Source: Marivita sp. (GTDB lineage: Bacteria; Pseudomonadota; Alphaproteobacteria; Rhodobacterales; Rhodobacteraceae). From it: a stretch of 59,015 nt of DNA. The position numbers and the translations under genes were made by a program. The notes under the pieces were generated by a model. The model made no database searches. It saw only the letters and a list, made by a program, of their open reading frames with translations, and was not told where the DNA came from. The stretch lies in contig NZ_JAIPUS010000020.1 in NCBI RefSeq assembly GCF_020055675.1, forward strand, positions 1-59,015, written 5' to 3'. Shown in pieces: positions 41,655-49,639 of this stretch. The number at the start of each line of letters is the position of its first letter. Position 1 is the stretch's first letter.

Positions 41655-42275
41655 ATGTCAGATGATCCCAAGAACCTCATCCGCATCGCACGCGACACCG
41701 GGATTCAGGACCAACCCGAAGCATTGAACCTGGGTTTGCGCGTGCGCGATTTGCGCAAGGCGCGGAACTGGACGCTGGAACAGGCAGCGCAGCAGGCGGG
41801 CCTGGCGCGATCAACGCTGTCAAAGATCGAGAACGGGCAGATGTCGCCGACCTATGACGCGCTGAAGAAACTGGCCGTCGGGTTGCAGATCAGCGTGCCG
41901 CAGCTTTTCACGCCGCCGCAGCGGGAAAAGATCAATGGCCGAATGGTGATGACGCCATTTGGATCAGGCCAACATCATGCAACGACCACCTATGAACACG
42001 AACTTTTATCCGAAACGCTGACCAAGAAGCAGATGTTGCCCTACCGGGCACGTGTGCGGGCGCGCAAGATCGAGGAATTCGATGGGTGGGTGCGGCATGA
42101 CGGCGAGGAGTTTCTTTATGTCCTGACCGGGATGATCCGCCTGTTCACGGAATTCTATGAGCCGATCGAGATGCGCCGGGGCGACAGCGCCTATTACGAT
42201 GCCACGATGGGACACAACGTGATCTCGGTGTCAGAGGACGACGCCACGATCCTTTGGGTGACTTCGTTGCTGTGA
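41655..42275 (+). CDS. XRE family transcriptional regulator with C-terminal cupin domain
   Basis: A 206-residue regulator. The helix-turn-helix spans about residues 28-82 (LRKARNWTLEQAAQQAGLARSTLSKIENG split as two helices). A cupin sensor domain follows at about residues 130-205 (HDGEEFLYVLTGMIRLF and MRRGDSAYYDATMGHNV). Proteins of this layout bind small metabolites in the cupin and often repress neighbouring catabolic genes; the divergent ligase is the likely target. The start at 41655 (MSDDPKN) is the first codon consistent with the family. Its last 45 bp overlap a convergent small gene. Confidence 0.9.
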   Translation: MSDDPKNLIRIARDTGIQDQPEALNLGLRVRDLRKARNWTLEQAAQQAGLARSTLSKIENGQMSPTYDALKKLAVGLQISVPQLFTPPQREKINGRMVMTPFGSGQHHATTTYEHELLSETLTKKQMLPYRARVRARKIEEFDGWVRHDGEEFLYVLTGMIRLFTEFYEPIEMRRGDSAYYDATMGHNVISVSEDDATILWVTSLL

Positions 42276-42518
42276 GATTTGCTCTGGCGTGCGGGCCATT
42301 TCGCTCGCCTGCCGCGCAAGGGATTCGACAAAGATCAGGTCTGCAAGCTCTTCCGACGCTTCACGCGGGGTCAGGTCATGCGTTTCGGCAAGGTGCCGGG
42401 TGATATCTTCCATATCATCCGACGGACGCGTCAACGTTTCGCCATTGAGAAACGGAAAGCGTACATGAAGACGGATCAGCGCGGCGTACCAGTTCCGGGA
42501 AAATTCAGACCTCGTCAT
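42231..42518 (-). CDS. Conserved-looking hypothetical protein, 95 residues
   Basis: I do not recognise a family. Reasons to accept it: an AGGAGC ribosome-binding site eight bases before the ATG, a promoter-like TTGACC-N17-ATTATG at 42551-42579, and protein-like composition with amphipathic helices (NWYAALIRLHVRFPFLNG, then DMEDITRHLAETHDLTPREA). The composition suggests a soluble helical protein. It overlaps the 3' end of the XRE-cupin gene by 45 bp tail to tail. Confidence 0.6.
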   Translation of the reverse strand: MTRSEFSRNWYAALIRLHVRFPFLNGETLTRPSDDMEDITRHLAETHDLTPREASEELADLIFVESLARQASEMARTPEQISQQRSHPKDRGVVL

Positions 42519-42550
42519 GTTCAGGCTCCTGACTGTGTGCCGTCGTATGC

Positions 42551-42579
42551 CATAATGGCACAGCGTCAGCGCCGGTCAA
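42551..42579 (-). promoter_or_regulatory. Promoter-like element for the 95-residue gene
   Basis: On the minus strand TTGACC is followed after 17 bp by ATTATG, giving a leader of about 26 bases before the ATG at 42518. Confidence 0.5.
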
Positions 42580-42586
42580 TAGACGT

Positions 42587-42608
42587 CTGCGGGCGCAGTC
42601 ACCCGCAG
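42587..42608 (-). terminator. Hairpin after the entericidin-like gene
   Basis: CTGCGGG pairs with CCCGCAG (7 bp, 8-base loop) 17 bp after the stop of the small lipoprotein gene. No T-run follows. Confidence 0.45.
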
Positions 42609-42624
42609 AGGTGTTCACCGCCTG

Positions 42625-42741
42625 TCAGAACCAGCCTTGCACGGCCCGAGCACTGCCAGAGATATCCCGTCCCAGGCCCTCGACCGTTGCGCAGGCGGTG
42701 ATACTGCACGCCAGCAGCATCAATAGTCCCCATTTCGGCAT
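42625..42741 (-). CDS. Entericidin EcnA/B-like small lipoprotein
   Basis: A 38-residue peptide with a hydrophobic N-terminal segment (WGLLMLLACSITAC) and a lipobox ending at Cys17. The entericidin signature CATVEGLGRDIS follows, then a short amphipathic tail ending VQGWF. A GAGGAG site precedes the ATG. The gene starts three bases after the stop of the solute-binding-protein gene, so they share a transcript. Entericidins are cell-envelope lipoproteins; in E. coli EcnA and EcnB behave as antidote and toxin linked to stationary-phase lysis. Which activity applies here cannot be told. Confidence 0.75.
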   Translation of the reverse strand: MPKWGLLMLLACSITACATVEGLGRDISGSARAVQGWF

Positions 42742-42744
42742 CGA

Positions 42745-44562
42745 TCACTCCTCGTCCCACCACCAGACATCGGGTTGCCAGCCGATCCAGTCACCGTAGA
42801 TCGGCAGCGCGTCGGGATATTTCAGCTCTTTCACATGGGCGATGCGGCTGATGTTCCACTGATAGATCGGAATCACGTAGCGCCCGGTGGTCAGCACGCG
42901 GTCAAGCGCGCGGGTGGCGGCGATGAAGTCCTCGCGCGACCCGGAATTCAGGATCGTGTCGATCATTTCTTCGGCCGCCGGTGAACACATGCCCATCCAG
43001 TTGCGGGTGCCCGGGGCGTCAACCCCGTCGCAGCCCCAGTAGAGTTTCTGTTCGTTGCCGGGGCTGAGCGAGAGGCCACGCCGGTAATATGTCATGTCAA
43101 AGTCATAGGTGTTCGTGCGTTCGCGAAACTGCGCGTTGTCAATGGTGGTGACGATTGGCGTAATTCCCATGCGTTCCAGCGACTGCGTGAACAGGTCGAT
43201 GATCGCCTCATTTTCGGAACTGCCCTGGCTGAGCACGATTTCAAAGGTGAACGCTGCGCCATCGGGGCGCGTCATGACACCTTCCTCGATCGTGTATCCG
43301 GCGTCTTGCATCAAAGAGATCGCCGCGCGGATATTGCCCCGGTTCCGCTCTGTGCCATCGCTGACGGGCAGGGCGTAGCCATCCAGCGCGCCGGGCAGCA
43401 AACTGTCCTCGAACGGTTCCAGAAGGTCGCGCACGCGTCCGTCCGCCGCGCCGTCCTGCATCCCCAGAACTGAGTTGGAAAAATAAGAAGTGATGCGCGG
43501 CTGTTTGGACCCGGTCATGGTTTCGTTGATATATTCGAAATTGAACGCGTGGATCATCGCGTCGCGCACGCGCCAGTCGCTGAACGCATCGCGGCGCGTG
43601 TTCATCACAAACCCCGTGATCCCGGAGGGCCGTTCATGCGGGATCACCGATTTGACCACATCGCCGGTGTCGATGGCGGGGAAGTCGTATTGCGTGGCCC
43701 ATTTCTCGACATTGAATTCCCGGCTTGAATTCAGTGCACCGGCTTTGAACGCTTCGAACATCGCGGTGCCATCGCCGTAGAACTCCATGCGGATTTCATC
43801 GAGGTTGGCCTGACCCCGCATGAAATTGACATCCTGGCCCCAGTAATCGGGATCACGCCCGAGACTGACGAAACGGCCGGCCTCGTAGTCGTCGATCACG
43901 TAAGGCGCGGTGGTGATGGGGATCTCGTCGATACCGGACGCGGCAAAATCCTTGCCCTCCCATTGTGCCTTTTTCAGGATCGGACGCATGCCGATCAGGA
44001 GCGCCATTTCCGGGTCATCTTCTTCAAAGGTGAAGCGAATGCTGCGCGGGGCGGTCTGTTCCATCGATGCGACCTTGGCCCAGGCGCCGTGATAGCGTGG
44101 ATGACCGATGGTGCCGAGGGTTTCGTAGGACCACATCACGTCCTCGACGGTGACAGGGCTTCCGTCGGAGAATCGGGCCTCGTCGCGCAAGACGAATTCG
44201 ACCCATTCGCGGTTCGGTCCCGTTTCGATTGATTCGGCCAGGAGCGCATAAAGCGAGAAGGGCTCGTCCCAGTTTCGGCCCATCAGGCCTTCATAGAGCA
44301 GGAACCGCAGTTGCCAAGGGGTCGAGCCCTTGGGGATATGCGGGTTGAGGCTGTCGAAGCCGCCAGTCTCGCCGGTGACGATCCGGCCGCCCTTGGGGGC
44401 ATCTGGGTTTGCATATGGCAGAGACACAAAATCAGGTGGAAGCGCCGGATCGCCATACATAGCTATGCCGTGCCGAGGCTCGGCATGCGCAGAGTGCGCG
44501 GCCATCGTCAGGGCGAAGGCGGCGGCGCTTAGCTGCCAAATCTGGAAACAATTCGATCTCAT
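42745..44562 (-). CDS. Family-5 extracellular solute-binding protein (YejA/oligopeptide-type)
   Basis: A 605-residue periplasmic receptor with a Sec signal peptide (about residues 1-27, ending HSAHA). The binding-protein signature reads FLLYEGLMGRNWDEPFSLYALLAESIE (in parts), then VEFVLRDEARFSDGSPVTVEDVMWSYETLG. Residue pattern and length match the YejA branch, which captures peptides such as microcin C for the YejBEF permease. No permease or ATPase gene is adjacent, so it is an orphan receptor here or its partners are elsewhere. Downstream it carries the entericidin-like gene. Upstream, on the opposite strand, is a candidate small RNA. Confidence 0.9.
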   Translation of the reverse strand: MRSNCFQIWQLSAAAFALTMAAHSAHAEPRHGIAMYGDPALPPDFVSLPYANPDAPKGGRIVTGETGGFDSLNPHIPKGSTPWQLRFLLYEGLMGRNWDEPFSLYALLAESIETGPNREWVEFVLRDEARFSDGSPVTVEDVMWSYETLGTIGHPRYHGAWAKVASMEQTAPRSIRFTFEEDDPEMALLIGMRPILKKAQWEGKDFAASGIDEIPITTAPYVIDDYEAGRFVSLGRDPDYWGQDVNFMRGQANLDEIRMEFYGDGTAMFEAFKAGALNSSREFNVEKWATQYDFPAIDTGDVVKSVIPHERPSGITGFVMNTRRDAFSDWRVRDAMIHAFNFEYINETMTGSKQPRITSYFSNSVLGMQDGAADGRVRDLLEPFEDSLLPGALDGYALPVSDGTERNRGNIRAAISLMQDAGYTIEEGVMTRPDGAAFTFEIVLSQGSSENEAIIDLFTQSLERMGITPIVTTIDNAQFRERTNTYDFDMTYYRRGLSLSPGNEQKLYWGCDGVDAPGTRNWMGMCSPAAEEMIDTILNSGSREDFIAATRALDRVLTTGRYVIPIYQWNISRIAHVKELKYPDALPIYGDWIGWQPDVWWWDEE

Positions 44563-44641
44563 TTTCGCAACGACCCCTGTCTGCCCTTGTTTTATTGCGC
44601 CTGACGGTAACGAGGCTTTCGTGGGTTTTCAAACTTTTAGC

Positions 44642-44670
44642 TTGGATCGGCGCGAAAGATTGCTTATAAC
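44642..44670 (+). promoter_or_regulatory. Promoter of the candidate small RNA
   Basis: TTGGAT (44642-44647), a 17-bp spacer, and TATAAC (44665-44670). Transcription would start near 44677. No coding start lies downstream before the terminator. Confidence 0.6.
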
Positions 44671-44676
44671 GGGATC

Positions 44677-44751
44677 ACTGCTCGATAGGTTTCTTGCCTG
44701 TATGAAACCTGCCTCAATAACTTGACCCCGGCCTCGTGCCGGGGTTTTTTT
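44677..44751 (+). ncRNA. Candidate small regulatory RNA, about 75 nt
   Basis: The predicted transcript runs from about 44677 to the T-run at 44751. It folds into a first hairpin with stem AGGTTTC/GAAACCT (44687-44710) around a 10-base loop TTGCCTGTAT. A single-stranded linker with GCCTC and a strong intrinsic terminator follow. The loop and linker pyrimidine-rich CCT motifs resemble the anti-Shine-Dalgarno seeds of Hfq-dependent small RNAs; that is inference. It is divergent from the solute-binding-protein gene. I do not recognise a described RNA family. Only a seven-codon open frame (MKPASIT) lies inside. Confidence 0.6.
44726..44751 (+). terminator. Strong intrinsic terminator
   Basis: CCCCGGC and GCCGGGG form a 7-bp GC stem with loop CTCGT, immediately followed by seven T. 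It works on the plus strand only. The nearest upstream gene on that strand ends 2.4 kb away, which is the main argument for a transcript starting locally. Confidence 0.9.
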
Positions 44752-45042
44752 ATCCCCATGACAGGTGATCGGTGCCGACGCAACGGTCGACATGTTGGGC
44801 CGAACACGCCGCGCGGGCCGCTATATATGGGTTTGGGCGATGCCGCTGTGTTGCTCGCGCCACCGCCCGCTGTTGCGCCGGAATTGTCGGTCAGGCCTGA
44901 GACCAGCATCGCGATGCCGCGCGCGGAACGATTCGCCCGAGCCCGGCGCGCCCCTGTCTGATCGCCGGCAACACCCCTTTGTGTTATGCAGGCGCGGCAT
45001 GTAAATTGCTGCACAAGCAAACAACGCAAAGAGGAAGCGAAC

Positions 45043-45816
45043 ATGTCGCTCAATGGGAAAACGGCGATCATCACCGGGTCCAATTCGGGAATCGGTCTGG
45101 GCGTGGCGCATGAACTGGCCCGCGCGGGCGCGAATGTGGTGATCAACTCTTTTACCGACACGGCCGAGGATCATCGCCTGGCCGAAACCATCGGCAAGGA
45201 GCACGAAATCACCGCGCGCTACATACAGGCGGATATGTCGAAGCCGGAGCAGTGCCGCGCGCTTATTGAGCAAGCCGGTGGCTGCGATATCCTTGTGAAC
45301 AATGCTGGGATTCAGCATGTCGCACCGGTCGAAGACTTCCCGACGGAAAAATGGGACGCGATCATCGCGATCAACATGTCCTCGGCCTTTCACACCACCG
45401 CCGCAGCCTTGCCGATGATGCGCCGCGCAGGCTGGGGCCGGATCGTCAATATCGCCAGTGCACATGGCCTGACCGCGTCGCCGTTCAAATCGGCCTATGT
45501 GACGGCAAAGCACGGGGTGGTCGGCCTCACGAAGACAGTGGCGCTGGAGACCGCGAGAGAGCCGATCACCGCGAACGCGATTTGTCCCGGGTATGTCCTG
45601 ACCCCATTGGTGGAAAGCCAGATCCCGGATACCGCCAGGAAATACGAAATGTCCGAGGAGGAGGTGAAGCAGAAGGTGATCCTCGAGCGGCAGCCATCGA
45701 AGGAATTCGCGACGGTCGAACAGGTTGGCGGCACCGCGGTGTTCCTGTGTTCGGCTGCGGCCGCGCAGATCACCGGCACGACGATCTCGGTCGATGGCGG
45801 CTGGACCGCGCTTTGA
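45043..45816 (+). CDS. bdhA: 3-Hydroxybutyrate dehydrogenase
   Basis: A 257-residue short-chain dehydrogenase oxidising D-3-hydroxybutyrate to acetoacetate with NAD. The Rossmann motif is TGSNSGIGLGVA. Then come NNAGIQHVAPVEDFP, the catalytic Ser-Tyr-Lys group in IVNIASAHGLTASPFKSAY (two parts) and YVTAKHG, and the family-typical ICPGYVLTPLVESQI. The start at 45043 (MSLNGKTAI) has a GAGGAAG site. It is followed by a GC-hairpin repeat and a patatin-like gene on the same strand, suggesting polyhydroxybutyrate degradation. Confidence 0.93.
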   Translation: MSLNGKTAIITGSNSGIGLGVAHELARAGANVVINSFTDTAEDHRLAETIGKEHEITARYIQADMSKPEQCRALIEQAGGCDILVNNAGIQHVAPVEDFPTEKWDAIIAINMSSAFHTTAAALPMMRRAGWGRIVNIASAHGLTASPFKSAYVTAKHGVVGLTKTVALETAREPITANAICPGYVLTPLVESQIPDTARKYEMSEEEVKQKVILERQPSKEFATVEQVGGTAVFLCSAAAAQITGTTISVDGGWTAL

Positions 45817-45837
45817 CCATGCGCTTCGCAAGGCGGT

Positions 45838-45868
45838 GCGAGGGGCCAGCCCCTCGCGCTCCCCGGAG
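45838..45868 (+). repeat. GC-hairpin intergenic repeat, copy C
   Basis: GCGAGGGG-ccag-CCCCTCGC (45838-45857) is followed by CTCCCCGGAGTTTA, the same layout as copies A and B. Its tail runs into GGCAAGATGAAGGAG, so the repeat appears to supply the ribosome-binding site region of the next gene. Confidence 0.7.
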
Positions 45869-45901
45869 TTTACCTGGCAAGATGAAGGAGCGCGCGGCAA
45901 C

Positions 45902-46933
45902 ATGGTAAAGATCAACCTGGCGCTCCAGGGGGGCGGCGCACATGGCGCGTTCACCTGGGGGGTGCTTGACCGGATTCTCGAGGACACGGACATAGAGATT
46001 GCGGCGATCACCGGCACCTCTGCCGGGGCGCTGAACGGGGCGGTGGTGAAATCCGGCCTTGTGCGGAACGGCCGCGAGGGCGCGCGCGAGTCGCTGGATT
46101 GGCTGTGGACGCAGGTGGCGCGGCTGGATGAACTGAGCATTCCGAAATGGATGCAGGCCTGGCTGCCAACGCCAGGCACCATCAGCAACTCCATCGAATA
46201 TTCCCCCGGTTTTCTGATGAGCGATACCTTCAGCCGGATGATGTCGCCCTATGCGTGGGGGCCATTTTACGACAATCCGTTGGAGAAGATCGTCGACCAG
46301 CTGGATTTCGACACTGTCTGCACGACGAAAGGGCCCCAACTCTACGTCTGCGCCACCAATGTGCGCGATGGCAAGGTGCGGGTTTTCGAAGGCGACTGGA
46401 TTTCCACCCAGAGCATCCTGGCCTCGGCCTGCCTGCCAACGCTGTTCAAGGCGGTCGAAGTGACAGATCCGCAAACCGGCGAGGTCGAGGCGTTCTGGGA
46501 TGGCGGCTATACCGGCAATCCGGCGCTTTTCCCGCTCTATCACAACGATTTGCCCAAGGATGTGTTGATCATCAATATCAACCCGCTGCATCGCGACACG
46601 GTGCCGAAGATGCCGAACGAGATCCAGAACCGGATCAACGAGATCAGCTTCAATTCGTCACTGCTGCGCGAGTTGCGGGCGATCGAGTTCGTGCAACGCC
46701 TGGTCTCTGAAGGCACGGTCGCCGACGGCGCGATGAAAAAGATGCGGGTTCACATGATCGCGGATGATCAGCTGATGAATGATCTGTCGGTGGCGACGAA
46801 GATGGTGCCGGTGCCGTCGGTGATCGCGGCGTTGAAAGCCGCCGGACGCCAGGCGGCGGATACCTTCCTGTCGCAGCACAAAGCGGATCTTGGCACGCGG
46901 CAGACGGTGGATCTGGTCGAGATGTTTGGCTGA
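45902..46933 (+). CDS. Patatin-like hydrolase (possible PHB depolymerase)
   Basis: A 343-residue alpha/beta hydrolase with a Ser-Asp dyad. It has the oxyanion motif GGGAHG at residues 11-16, nucleophile GTSAG with Ser40, and catalytic Asp200 in FWDGGYTGNPA. There is no signal peptide, so it is cytoplasmic. Patatins are usually phospholipases. Coupling to bdhA (86 bp upstream, same strand) suggests an intracellular polyhydroxybutyrate depolymerase or oligomer hydrolase, since BdhA uses the released 3-hydroxybutyrate. The start at 45902 (MVKINLAL) fits the family N-terminus; GGAG lies 12 bases upstream. Confidence 0.88.
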   Translation: MVKINLALQGGGAHGAFTWGVLDRILEDTDIEIAAITGTSAGALNGAVVKSGLVRNGREGARESLDWLWTQVARLDELSIPKWMQAWLPTPGTISNSIEYSPGFLMSDTFSRMMSPYAWGPFYDNPLEKIVDQLDFDTVCTTKGPQLYVCATNVRDGKVRVFEGDWISTQSILASACLPTLFKAVEVTDPQTGEVEAFWDGGYTGNPALFPLYHNDLPKDVLIININPLHRDTVPKMPNEIQNRINEISFNSSLLRELRAIEFVQRLVSEGTVADGAMKKMRVHMIADDQLMNDLSVATKMVPVPSVIAALKAAGRQAADTFLSQHKADLGTRQTVDLVEMFG

Positions 46934-46989
46934 GAGGGGCTTTCGGGACACCGTTGACGGCGGGTGGGCGGCACGCGGCGAAACCGAGG

Positions 46990-47670
46990 TCACGCGGCCT
47001 TGACGGGCCGGGTCGGATCCTTGTCGTTAGGATAGACAAGCCCGGCGGAAATCACCAGTTTCGCGGCGTCTTCGATGCTCATATCAAGTTCGATCACGTC
47101 TTCTTCGGGAAAGAACAACAAAAATCCCGAGGTGGGATTTGGCGTGGTGGGCACGAAGACCGAGACAAGCCGTCCCATCGTTTCGGCACGGCGCGCCACC
47201 TCGCCGCGCGCATCGGTGGAGATAAAGCCGATGGCCCAGATCCCCTTGCGCGGATACTGGATAAGGCAGGCCTTTTCGAAGCTGCGGTCCGACTGGGCAA
47301 AGATCGTTTCGGCGATCTGTTTCACGCCGCTATAGATCGACCGGACCACCGGCATGCGCTGGACAAGGCTTTCGGCGAAGCGGATCAGCGACCTTCCGAT
47401 CAGACCCTTGGCAACCCAGCCAATGAAGATCGTGAAAAACAGGAAGAAGATGACGCCGATGCCGCGCAGGTTAATGCCGATATATTGCTCGGGATTGAAC
47501 CGGTCGGGCACCAGCGGCAGGACAAAGCCGTCGATCCAGCCCATGATCGACCAGATCAGCCAGATTGTCAGGCTGACCGGCGCGATGACGACAATTCCAG
47601 TGAGAAAGCTTGCCCGAAGGCGGGCAAACATGCCGGGTTTGCGGCGCTCTGGCTGAAATGGGGTGGTCAT
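46990..47670 (-). CDS. DUF502 family membrane protein
   Basis: A 226-residue protein with two hydrophobic helices (about residues 20-48 and 68-92). The DUF502 signature follows: RMPVVRSIYSGVKQIAETIF, then KGIWAIGFISTDARG and VFVPTTPNPTSGFLLFFPEEDVIELDMSIEDA (in parts). The domain is found in bacteria and plants (COV proteins) without a known bacterial activity. Convergent with the patatin-like gene. Confidence 0.88.
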   Translation of the reverse strand: MTTPFQPERRKPGMFARLRASFLTGIVVIAPVSLTIWLIWSIMGWIDGFVLPLVPDRFNPEQYIGINLRGIGVIFFLFFTIFIGWVAKGLIGRSLIRFAESLVQRMPVVRSIYSGVKQIAETIFAQSDRSFEKACLIQYPRKGIWAIGFISTDARGEVARRAETMGRLVSVFVPTTPNPTSGFLLFFPEEDVIELDMSIEDAAKLVISAGLVYPNDKDPTRPVKAA

Positions 47671-47752
47671 TTGCAGTCCGTCTGTGGTTCCTGCGGACCC
47701 TAGGCGGTTCCCGGTTGCTCTACAATGTTTACGCAGCCCAAGGCTCTGAAAT

Positions 47753-48670
47753 TCAACGCAGAGACGCTATTTCCTGTGCACTTTGCGCCCCCAGCACGGC
47801 ATTGTTCAACACCAGGGCGATATTCGCGTCGAGCGATCTGCCGTCTGTCAGCTCGTATATCCGTTGCAGAAGGTACGGCGTCAGCGCCTTGCCCGAGATC
47901 CCATGCGTGTCTGCGTCCTTGGTGGCGCGGGTAATGATCGGGCGCATCTCGGACTGCGGGATCTCGGCGTCCCGGGGAATCGGATTGGCGACAAGCTGCC
48001 CGCCCGGCAGGGACAGGGCGCGGCGCATCTGGTGGGCCTTGGCGATGTCCAGCGGGGTATCCACGCGCAGCGGCGCCTTGAGTGTCGCGCCTCGTGACCA
48101 GAACGTGGGAAGCATGTCCTGCCCATAGGCCATGACGGGAACCCCCAGGGTTTCCAATACTTCGAGAGTTTTCGGCAGATCGAGGATCGCCTTGGCCCCG
48201 GCCGCCACGACCGTGACCGGGGTCTGCGACAATTCCTGCAGATCGGCAGAGATATCGAAACTTTGATCGGCACCGCGATGCACGCCGCCGATGCCGCCGG
48301 TGGCAAAGACCGAAATCCCGGCAAGACGCGCCGCGATCATCGTCGCGGCGACGGTGGTCGCCCCGGTGCCGCCACGGGCCATGCAGACGGCCATGTCGGC
48401 GCGGCTGAGTTTTGCGACCTGTTTGGCTTGCGCCAGCGCATCCAACTGACCGGCATCCATGCCAATGCAAAGCCGCCCGTCCAGTACGGCGATTGTCGCG
48501 GGCTCCGCGCCGTTTTCGCGGATCGTGGTCTCGATCGCGCGGGCCGTTTCAAGGTTCTGCGGCCAGGGCATGCCGTGGGTGATGATCGTTGATTCCAGCG
48601 CCACAACCGGCGCACCGGTGTCGAGCGCCGTCTGGACGGCGGGTGAGATATCGAGGGGCAGGGCGGTCAT
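47753..48670 (-). CDS. psuG: Pseudouridine-5'-phosphate glycosidase
   Basis: A 305-residue enzyme splitting pseudouridine 5'-phosphate to uracil and ribose 5-phosphate. Motifs include VALESTIITHGMPWPQN, GGTGATTVAATM, FATGGIGGVHRGA, and the conserved lysine in VAAGAKAILDLPKT. The start at 48670 lies three bases after the stop of the kinase gene, forming a psuK-psuG unit as in other bacteria. It allows use of pseudouridine from degraded RNA. Confidence 0.95.
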   Translation of the reverse strand: MTALPLDISPAVQTALDTGAPVVALESTIITHGMPWPQNLETARAIETTIRENGAEPATIAVLDGRLCIGMDAGQLDALAQAKQVAKLSRADMAVCMARGGTGATTVAATMIAARLAGISVFATGGIGGVHRGADQSFDISADLQELSQTPVTVVAAGAKAILDLPKTLEVLETLGVPVMAYGQDMLPTFWSRGATLKAPLRVDTPLDIAKAHQMRRALSLPGGQLVANPIPRDAEIPQSEMRPIITRATKDADTHGISGKALTPYLLQRIYELTDGRSLDANIALVLNNAVLGAQSAQEIASLR

Positions 48671-48673
48671 CGG

Positions 48674-49561
48674 TCAGGTTCCTCCGGCAACATAGGCTGC
48701 GGCAGTCGCGAGCGCGCGGTGCAGCGCCAATTCTCGCGGAGCGCCGCGTAATTCGGACGCGATATGGGCCGCCATGAACGCATCGCCTGCGCCGGTGACG
48801 CGCGTGACCATCACCTCTGGCGGACGTTCGGCAAGGAGACCCTCCGGCGTGGCGTCGCAGGTGACATTGCCGCCATCGGTGACCAGGGCGCGCGCCGCCC
48901 CGCGTTCGATCAGTGCGGCGCCCGCCTGCGGGGCGCTGTCGAAGCTTGCCTGGCAGAGCAACCCGGCCTCTTCGAGATTGACATAGAGCGTGCCATGCCC
49001 GCTGCGGATGAAGGGCAGGAGCCGTTCGGCCTTGCCGGGTGACGCGGGGGCGATGCGCAGGTCGGCCTTGGAAAAGGCGGGGTGGTGCGCGATCTGGTCC
49101 AGAAGCATTTCGGTCAGGTTGCCGTCAAGCGCGATGGGACCGGGAAACGGGGCTTCGACAAAGCCCAGCGGCCCGTCGATCAGCGGGCGCAGAATCTTGT
49201 CGCCCGCCTGTTCCAGCGAATGGGCATCGGCGATGGCCGCGGCGAGGCCATTGGCCCCTTCGATGGCCATGTATTGGTCGGTGGGAAGATCGTCGGAGCG
49301 GTAGACCTGGTCTGTCACAAGGCCCAGACGGTTGCAGGCCGACACAAGCTCTTCGCCTTCGGGGTCACGGCCAACGACACTGAGCAGGGCAGGGGTCAGA
49401 TCGAATCGCGCCAGCGTCATCGCGATATTCAGCGCCACGCCGCCCGGCAGCCGCGTGATGTGGCCGGGCACGTCGCTGCCGGGCTTCATGTGTCGGTCGG
49501 ATCTGCCGATAACGTCCCACAGGACGGATCCGATGCAGAGGATATCAGGGCGCTTGGTCAT
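48674..49561 (-). CDS. psuK: PfkB-family carbohydrate kinase, probable pseudouridine kinase
   Basis: A 295-residue ribokinase-fold enzyme. The N-terminal signature GGVALNIAMTLARF and the C-terminal PfkB catalytic motif TRVTGAGDAFMAAHIA are clear. Adjacency to psuG with a three-base gap indicates phosphorylation of pseudouridine, the first step of the pathway. The start at 49561 (MTKRPDIL) is used; 49573 is an alternative. No nucleoside transporter is visible nearby. Confidence 0.9.
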   Translation of the reverse strand: MTKRPDILCIGSVLWDVIGRSDRHMKPGSDVPGHITRLPGGVALNIAMTLARFDLTPALLSVVGRDPEGEELVSACNRLGLVTDQVYRSDDLPTDQYMAIEGANGLAAAIADAHSLEQAGDKILRPLIDGPLGFVEAPFPGPIALDGNLTEMLLDQIAHHPAFSKADLRIAPASPGKAERLLPFIRSGHGTLYVNLEEAGLLCQASFDSAPQAGAALIERGAARALVTDGGNVTCDATPEGLLAERPPEVMVTRVTGAGDAFMAAHIASELRGAPRELALHRALATAAAYVAGGT

Positions 49562-49639
49562 GCATCGTGTCATCGCCCGATGCGGGGGGCTGCGCAAGTG
49601 CCGGTTTTCATATTAGGCCGATGCAGGCCCCATTGTTGC

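Follow-up and report, generated by a model that had tools for sequence, protein, structure and literature searches.

The question raised by this locus is whether the gap between a solute-binding protein gene and a 3-hydroxybutyrate dehydrogenase gene encodes a small RNA, and if so, which RNA this is and on what it acts. The initial annotation of the window (the whole 59,015-nt stretch of Marivita sp. DNA that was analyzed) had described a compact unit of about 75 nt with its own promoter and terminator, and this description is well supported, including by an edge of conservation at position 44677 (Table 1). The small RNA reads ACTGCTCGATAGGTTTCTTGCCTGTATGAAACCTGCCTCAATAACTTGACCCCGGCCTCGTGCCGGGGTTTTTTT from that position on the + strand. 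Its promoter-like sequence is present as had been claimed and can be read in an extended form, CTTGGAT-N17-TATAAC; it is missing from the list returned by an automatic promoter scan because that scan demands a T at the last -10 position. Conservation steps up sharply at 44677, 7 nt past the -10 box, a boundary that fits the predicted transcript start, and from there the predicted RNA is 75 nt long to the last T (71-81 nt in relatives). The 5' hairpin, described at first as a perfect one of 7 bp, indeed has seven perfect pairs, to which one U-G pair adds an eighth. The terminator is likewise as strong as had been proposed: its nine pairs are the most among the seven sites listed for positions 42000-48000, a region in which shuffled sequences gave a mean of 5.5 sites. 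The fold computed for 77 nt of the RNA has an energy of -26.5 kcal/mol against a mean of -15.5 for shuffled sequences (z = -4.5), with none of 200 shuffles as good. The absence of any coding sequence on this strand for 2.4 kb upstream, also part of the original description, is a reasonable reading, the nearest gene-like frame of the + strand ending at 42275; the end of that frame resembles, by eye, an XRE/cupin-type regulator. Its conservation, described next, goes far beyond chance, and with nearly every sampled species of the family carrying it almost unchanged, the existence of this small RNA is very probable.

Table 1. Coordinates and supporting details of the features in and around the predicted small RNA gene
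Feature	Position	Strand	Details
Divergent gene, family-5 extracellular solute-binding protein, 605 aa	42745..44562	-	PF00496, 194.8 bits
Promoter-like sequence of the divergent gene	44604..44632	-	TTGAAA-N17-TACCGT, by eye
Imperfect dyad CAAACTTTTAGCTTG	44630..44644		Overlaps the -35 of the small RNA and the -35-like box of the divergent gene
Small RNA promoter (predicted)	44642..44670	+	-35 TTGGAT 44642-44647, 17-nt spacer, -10 TATAAC 44665-44670
Small RNA gene (predicted)	44677..44751	+	Transcript of at most 75 nt, end within the T run
Possible second contact	44678..44684	+	RNA nt 2-8, CTGCTCG versus CGAGCAG in the same leader
5' hairpin	44686..44711	+	From fold; stems 44686-44693 / 44704-44711, loop 44694-44703
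dcw-complementary segment	44695..44712	+	RNA nt 19-36; perfect match to the dcw leader upstream of mraZ (G000:C70)
Intrinsic terminator	44724..44751	+	Stem 44724-44746, then a run of 7 T to 44751
3-Hydroxybutyrate dehydrogenase (bdhA-like)	45043..45816	+	TIGR01963 over cut-off

The RNA is nearly universal in its family. A DNA search of 61 genomes recovered it in all 37 Rhodobacteraceae examined (17 of the same genus, the source genome included, and 20 of other genera), and the other 24 genomes, all from outside the family, gave nothing beyond one 21-nt match. In a wider search, it was present in 385 of 394 family genomes and in 346 of the 347 good assemblies among them; as one match in a good assembly (G195, E = 6e-4) was unconfirmed on re-search, the safer counts are 384 and 345. 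One further genome (G429) carries the RNA split over two contig ends. A re-search at a loose threshold recovered it in none of the nine family genomes from which it is missing, all of which are assemblies 70-90% complete. Eight of these nine nevertheless hold a site like that of the dcw leader discussed below, beside mraZ in two (G073 and G173) and by sequence alone in six (G206, G276, G365, G374, G375, and G399). Both the completeness and the surviving sites point to gaps in the assemblies as the likely explanation of the absences.

A covariance model was run with stricter filters against 192 genomes of the class. The three that belong to the family scored 102-106 bits, and the 189 non-family genomes gave three weak matches at 27-31 bits, as against 102 bits for the small RNA itself; in the stretches printed, these three show the terminator only, and we therefore rejected them as evidence of occurrence outside the family. 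A pattern scan of titled contigs returned at least 118 stretches with the conserved core, among them sequences of Ruegeria, Paracoccus, Roseobacter, Sulfitobacter, Rhodovulum, Jannaschia, and Cereibacter. Among the matches listed, every title that names a group gives the Rhodobacterales, one of its members, or simply Alphaproteobacteria; the genera among these matches, Neomegalonema included, belong to the Rhodobacterales. Since a match had to carry 39 of the 40 conserved bases, the scan is uninformative on variation.

For variation, other samples are available. Among 168 distinct loci, the majority of which had been chosen for their similarity, identity is 0.99-1.0 over 40 nt from 44677; just upstream of this point in the same loci the bases vary, save for the -10, the -35, and CAAACTTTTAG before the -35. 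In the 37 family genomes, a set not chosen by the conserved core, the first 40 nt are identical in 34, the source genome included, and have one change each in the other three, and a loose -35/-10 pattern is found in 36. Even among 16 genomes that gave a locus and had been picked mostly for weak matches, 10 have the identical 40 nt, as does Cereibacter flavus (L173), of the genus of Rhodobacter (Cereibacter) sphaeroides. The two stems differ in what this conservation says of them. All six consensus pairs of the terminator stem are changed on both sides in some sequence among 55 distinct ones, whereas the eight pairs of the 5' hairpin are invariant in the same set and so lie beyond any covariation test. 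The terminator stem is thus supported as a structure and the 5' stem is predicted only. Loss of both stems in relatives, named in the initial annotation as a finding that would speak against the RNA, was looked for and did not occur. Nor is a conserved peptide encoded: the frame that starts with an AUG at RNA nt 26 has 7 codons in 26 of the 37 family genomes, 5 in two, and 20 in one, while the remaining eight lack the AUG (L034) or run on for 30 codons without a stop. We rejected a coding role because the frame differs in length or is missing among these genomes.

At its own thresholds, Rfam reports tRNA alone in the whole window, so that this RNA would go unannotated there. The best match below threshold is to SorX (RF02784), and it raises the reading that we are dealing with a SorX-like RNA whose loop and C-rich linker would target transporter mRNAs or ribosome-binding sites. 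The two are of similar length, share a two-hairpin layout, and are both found across the family, SorX being over its cut-off in 311 of the 394 family genomes. However, the match of the small RNA to the SorX model (25.1 bits, E = 4e-4) falls well below the cut-off of 46.6 bits, and at E <= 0.01 the model also picks up 4 of 14 control genomes, again with scores under the cut-off. Moreover, SorX proper has its own locus elsewhere in this genome (G000:C33, 67.6 bits), and the small RNA has another linker, the SorX-like CCTCCCTGTTG being absent from it. Membership in SorX was therefore rejected, and we regard the corresponding mode of action as very unlikely. As an observation on SorX itself, this genome has three further SorX-like loci just below the cut-off, at 39-45 bits (together with SorX, L079-L082, on G000:C33, C73, C72, and C34), in which a linker CCTCCCTGTTG(G/A)ACT precedes a terminator; these are presumably similar to R. 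sphaeroides RNAs of the CcsR type.

A different RNA of R. sphaeroides fits far better. StsR, as described in the available parts of the literature, is a Hfq-associated RNA of 72 nt (PMC8307010); under its earlier name RSs0827, it is reported to be induced late under singlet oxygen stress (PMC3688512). It is an orphan RNA, induced through RpoHI/II, which pairs with the small RNA UpsM and with the 5' untranslated region of the dcw mRNA (PMC8625941, PMC11354728; for the pairing with UpsM, also PMC8307010). UpsM (RSs0682) is itself the leader RNA of dcw, whose long leader is described as a feature of the Rhodobacteraceae (PMC5089854); UpsM and the dcw 5' leader are thus the pairing partner, i.e., a target rather than counterparts of the small RNA. 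The RNA of this locus, from the same family, is likewise predicted from sequence to be an orphan with a promoter and a terminator of its own and a similar length of about 72 nt. As R. sphaeroides StsR pairs with the leader RNA of dcw, we examined the regions upstream of mraZ. In this genome, RNA nt 19-36 have a perfect complement, GCAGGTTTCATACAGGCA, in that leader, some 230 nt ahead of the MraZ coding motif. The near-universal conservation together with the match to the dcw control region makes this RNA most likely the local copy of StsR rather than SorX, which has its separate locus, and we hold orthology with StsR to be highly probable. The assignment rests on length, partner, and family, StsR being known here by description. 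In Paracoccus denitrificans, "Intergenic 60" or "134," from the available part of PMC5107571, is a candidate counterpart; the available part of the Ruegeria pomeroyi study (PMC4809877) yielded no position usable for comparison. Six pieces of the small RNA's letters were searched for in the open-licence literature and not found.

The complementarity to the dcw leader stands out both within this genome and across the family. The 17-mer CAGGTTTCATACAGGCA has two exact sites in the genome, namely the RNA gene (antisense) and the dcw leader; with up to three mismatches, four further sites appear, all at three, as against two for the reversed control. Two of these three-mismatch sites lie within frames but on the opposite strand, L226 in one of 165 aa that by eye resembles a peptide deformylase and L227 in one of 137 aa that by eye resembles acpS. 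The predicted gain from pairing with the leader is 19.4 kcal/mol (-134.7 joint versus -115.3 separate). A second contact is possible through the 5' end of the RNA, whose counterpart CGAGCAG sits 55 nt beyond the beginning of the first site and lies within 80 nt in 20 of the 31 leaders that hold TTCATACAGGC. Across 50 family leaders, we scored pairing as the longest paired run, with G-U counted as 0.3, using the consensus RNA rather than the genome's own copy for 15 of them. At the usual place, 36 of the 50 score 12 or more; the 50 are not a random sample because many of the 30 later leaders were picked for a weak or missing RNA match. Of the 20 leaders fetched first, 17 score 12 or more. In contrast, only 7 of 1773 equally long control windows reach 12 (maximum, 15.8), and none of seven mraZ regions from other families does. 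The leader of G035, at a contig start, scores 16, while that of G142 pairs at an unusual place, which may be chance. Scores stay below 12 in the leaders of G212, G162, G099, G232, G031, G378, G354, G085, G069, G123, G024, G030, and G033, the last having no site in the 236 bases present before the MraZ match. As a separate observation, the dcw leader of this genome (L215) has a long predicted hairpin after the pairing sites and then a broken run of T, which might be what is expected for a UpsM-type RNA. The initial annotation had suggested that a CCT-rich loop and linker could pair with ribosome-binding sites; this is not favored, the long conserved match being to the dcw leader and not to a ribosome-binding site.

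The leaders that depart from the usual site are informative in their own right. The leader of G407 pairs with RNA nt 27-47 over 21 bases, including letters of that genome's own linker, and the leader of G094 with nt 22-40 over 19 bases with one G-U. In G162 and G099, the leaders pair with nt 32-43 at a score of 11.3, which is weak when taken alone, as 42 of the 1773 controls reach 11. That changed leaders are matched by another part of the RNA supports a real pairing. At the same time, 40 nt of the RNA stay nearly frozen while the site slides, which suggests that pairing with the dcw leader is not enough to account for the freeze; further constraints from other targets, a protein, or contacts with an RNase or Hfq are likely. 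Such a freeze is more than one changing target would demand, and it could be taken to mean that we are dealing with an RNA other than StsR for which the dcw leader is likewise a partner, or with a hub RNA that has other main targets, the dcw match being one among several. Yet the exact long complementarity in this genome is solely to the dcw leader, and the RNA agrees with StsR in length, orphan status, and partner, which leaves this alternative improbable and StsR the preferred identity.

Two sets of other potential targets were considered. The published contact of StsR with rpoE, just downstream of the start, finds no family-wide signal here: the mean best helix was 7.6 in 23 genomes versus 7.3 in 3411 controls, in a test with rough start codons (2 of the 23 frames were wrong) and a sample outside which R. 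sphaeroides itself lies. The start regions of the neighboring solute-binding protein and bdhA genes show no notable complementarity to the small RNA either, their best helices of 5.3 and 8.9 lying near the control mean of 7.3 (sd, 1.1), and they were rejected as targets.

The neighborhood itself is conserved. The divergent placement from a peptide-type solute-binding protein gene, as first described, is borne out by 173 of the 187 loci with enough flank, in which such a gene lies within 700 nt; in 133 of 173 loci, a bdhA-like gene was found downstream of the RNA, no more than 1200 nt away and in the same orientation. Together with the shared promoter element, this arrangement would be expected if the RNA were a local element of the locus, serving as a leader or attenuator of bdhA or as an antisense control of a neighbor. 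We consider this extremely unlikely: the RNA is present in the 40 of 173 loci that have no bdhA-like gene in that range, it ends in a strong terminator, and its best helices with the starts of the neighbors lie near the control mean. What the locus may share is regulation. The dyad between the two genes has a positional conservation of 0.7-1.0, its CAAnCTTTT half is found upstream in 30 of the 37 family genomes, and in the -10-like box of the divergent gene the T and A are conserved at 0.83-0.85. The dyad is a possible operator for a regulator, and since it overlaps promoter-like sequences on both sides, one regulator or back-to-back polymerases may serve both the RNA and the divergent gene. 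Further along, the bdhA-like gene is followed by a gene for a patatin-like phospholipase (45725-46933, + strand, first codon uncertain), which was seen in that direction in 89 of 173 loci, a figure that is too low wherever the flank is short. On the - strand, at 47753-49597, lies a gene whose product belongs to the Indigoidine synthase A family (PF04227) and is of the pseudouridine-5'-phosphate glycosidase type; the gene adjoins a frame that resembles, by eye, a PfkB-type sugar kinase, and the two are probably a pair for pseudouridine breakdown.

These observations can be combined with the literature on StsR in a working model. We infer that the RNA is produced in this organism. It would be made under stress or in stationary phase, being transcribed from its own promoter, perhaps upon induction via RpoH-type sigma factors, and stopping at its own terminator. 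By analogy with StsR, it would bind Hfq. On contact with the dcw leader, the 5' hairpin would open, and about 18 bases of the 5' part of the RNA would pair with the long 5' leader of the operon; the same RNA would also pair with UpsM, the small RNA made when transcription stops inside this leader. Pairing may then be followed by cleavage by RNase E, a fall in dcw mRNA, and slower growth, as reasoned from R. sphaeroides StsR, whose induction, RNase E cleavage, and growth effect are published, as far as the available part of the source goes, for that species only (PMC11354728).

The kind of RNA is thus already known. What may be new here is its near-universal and almost invariant presence together with the sliding of its target site: the available part of three StsR papers does not speak of this wide distribution, and neither the presence nor the sliding was found in the part of the open-licence literature that could be consulted, itself a weak negative. 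We offer, as a tentative proposal that we rate somewhat below even chances, that StsR and dcw form an ancestral, near-universal brake on division in this family, in which the RNA has been frozen while its target slides, the freeze arising from further targets or a protein, and in which the RNA acts as a hub linking stress and the use of storage polymers to division. The constancy of the RNA against a moving target is unusual in itself and offers a direct test for further binding partners, and the covariance model R1 could start an annotation family for this RNA. More generally, a circuit described in one laboratory species appears to be core to the control of division in a large family, with the RNA in 385 of 394 sampled genomes; if the proposal holds, stress and storage-polymer use, represented at the same locus by bdhA and solute uptake, would be tied to cell division by the StsR hub.
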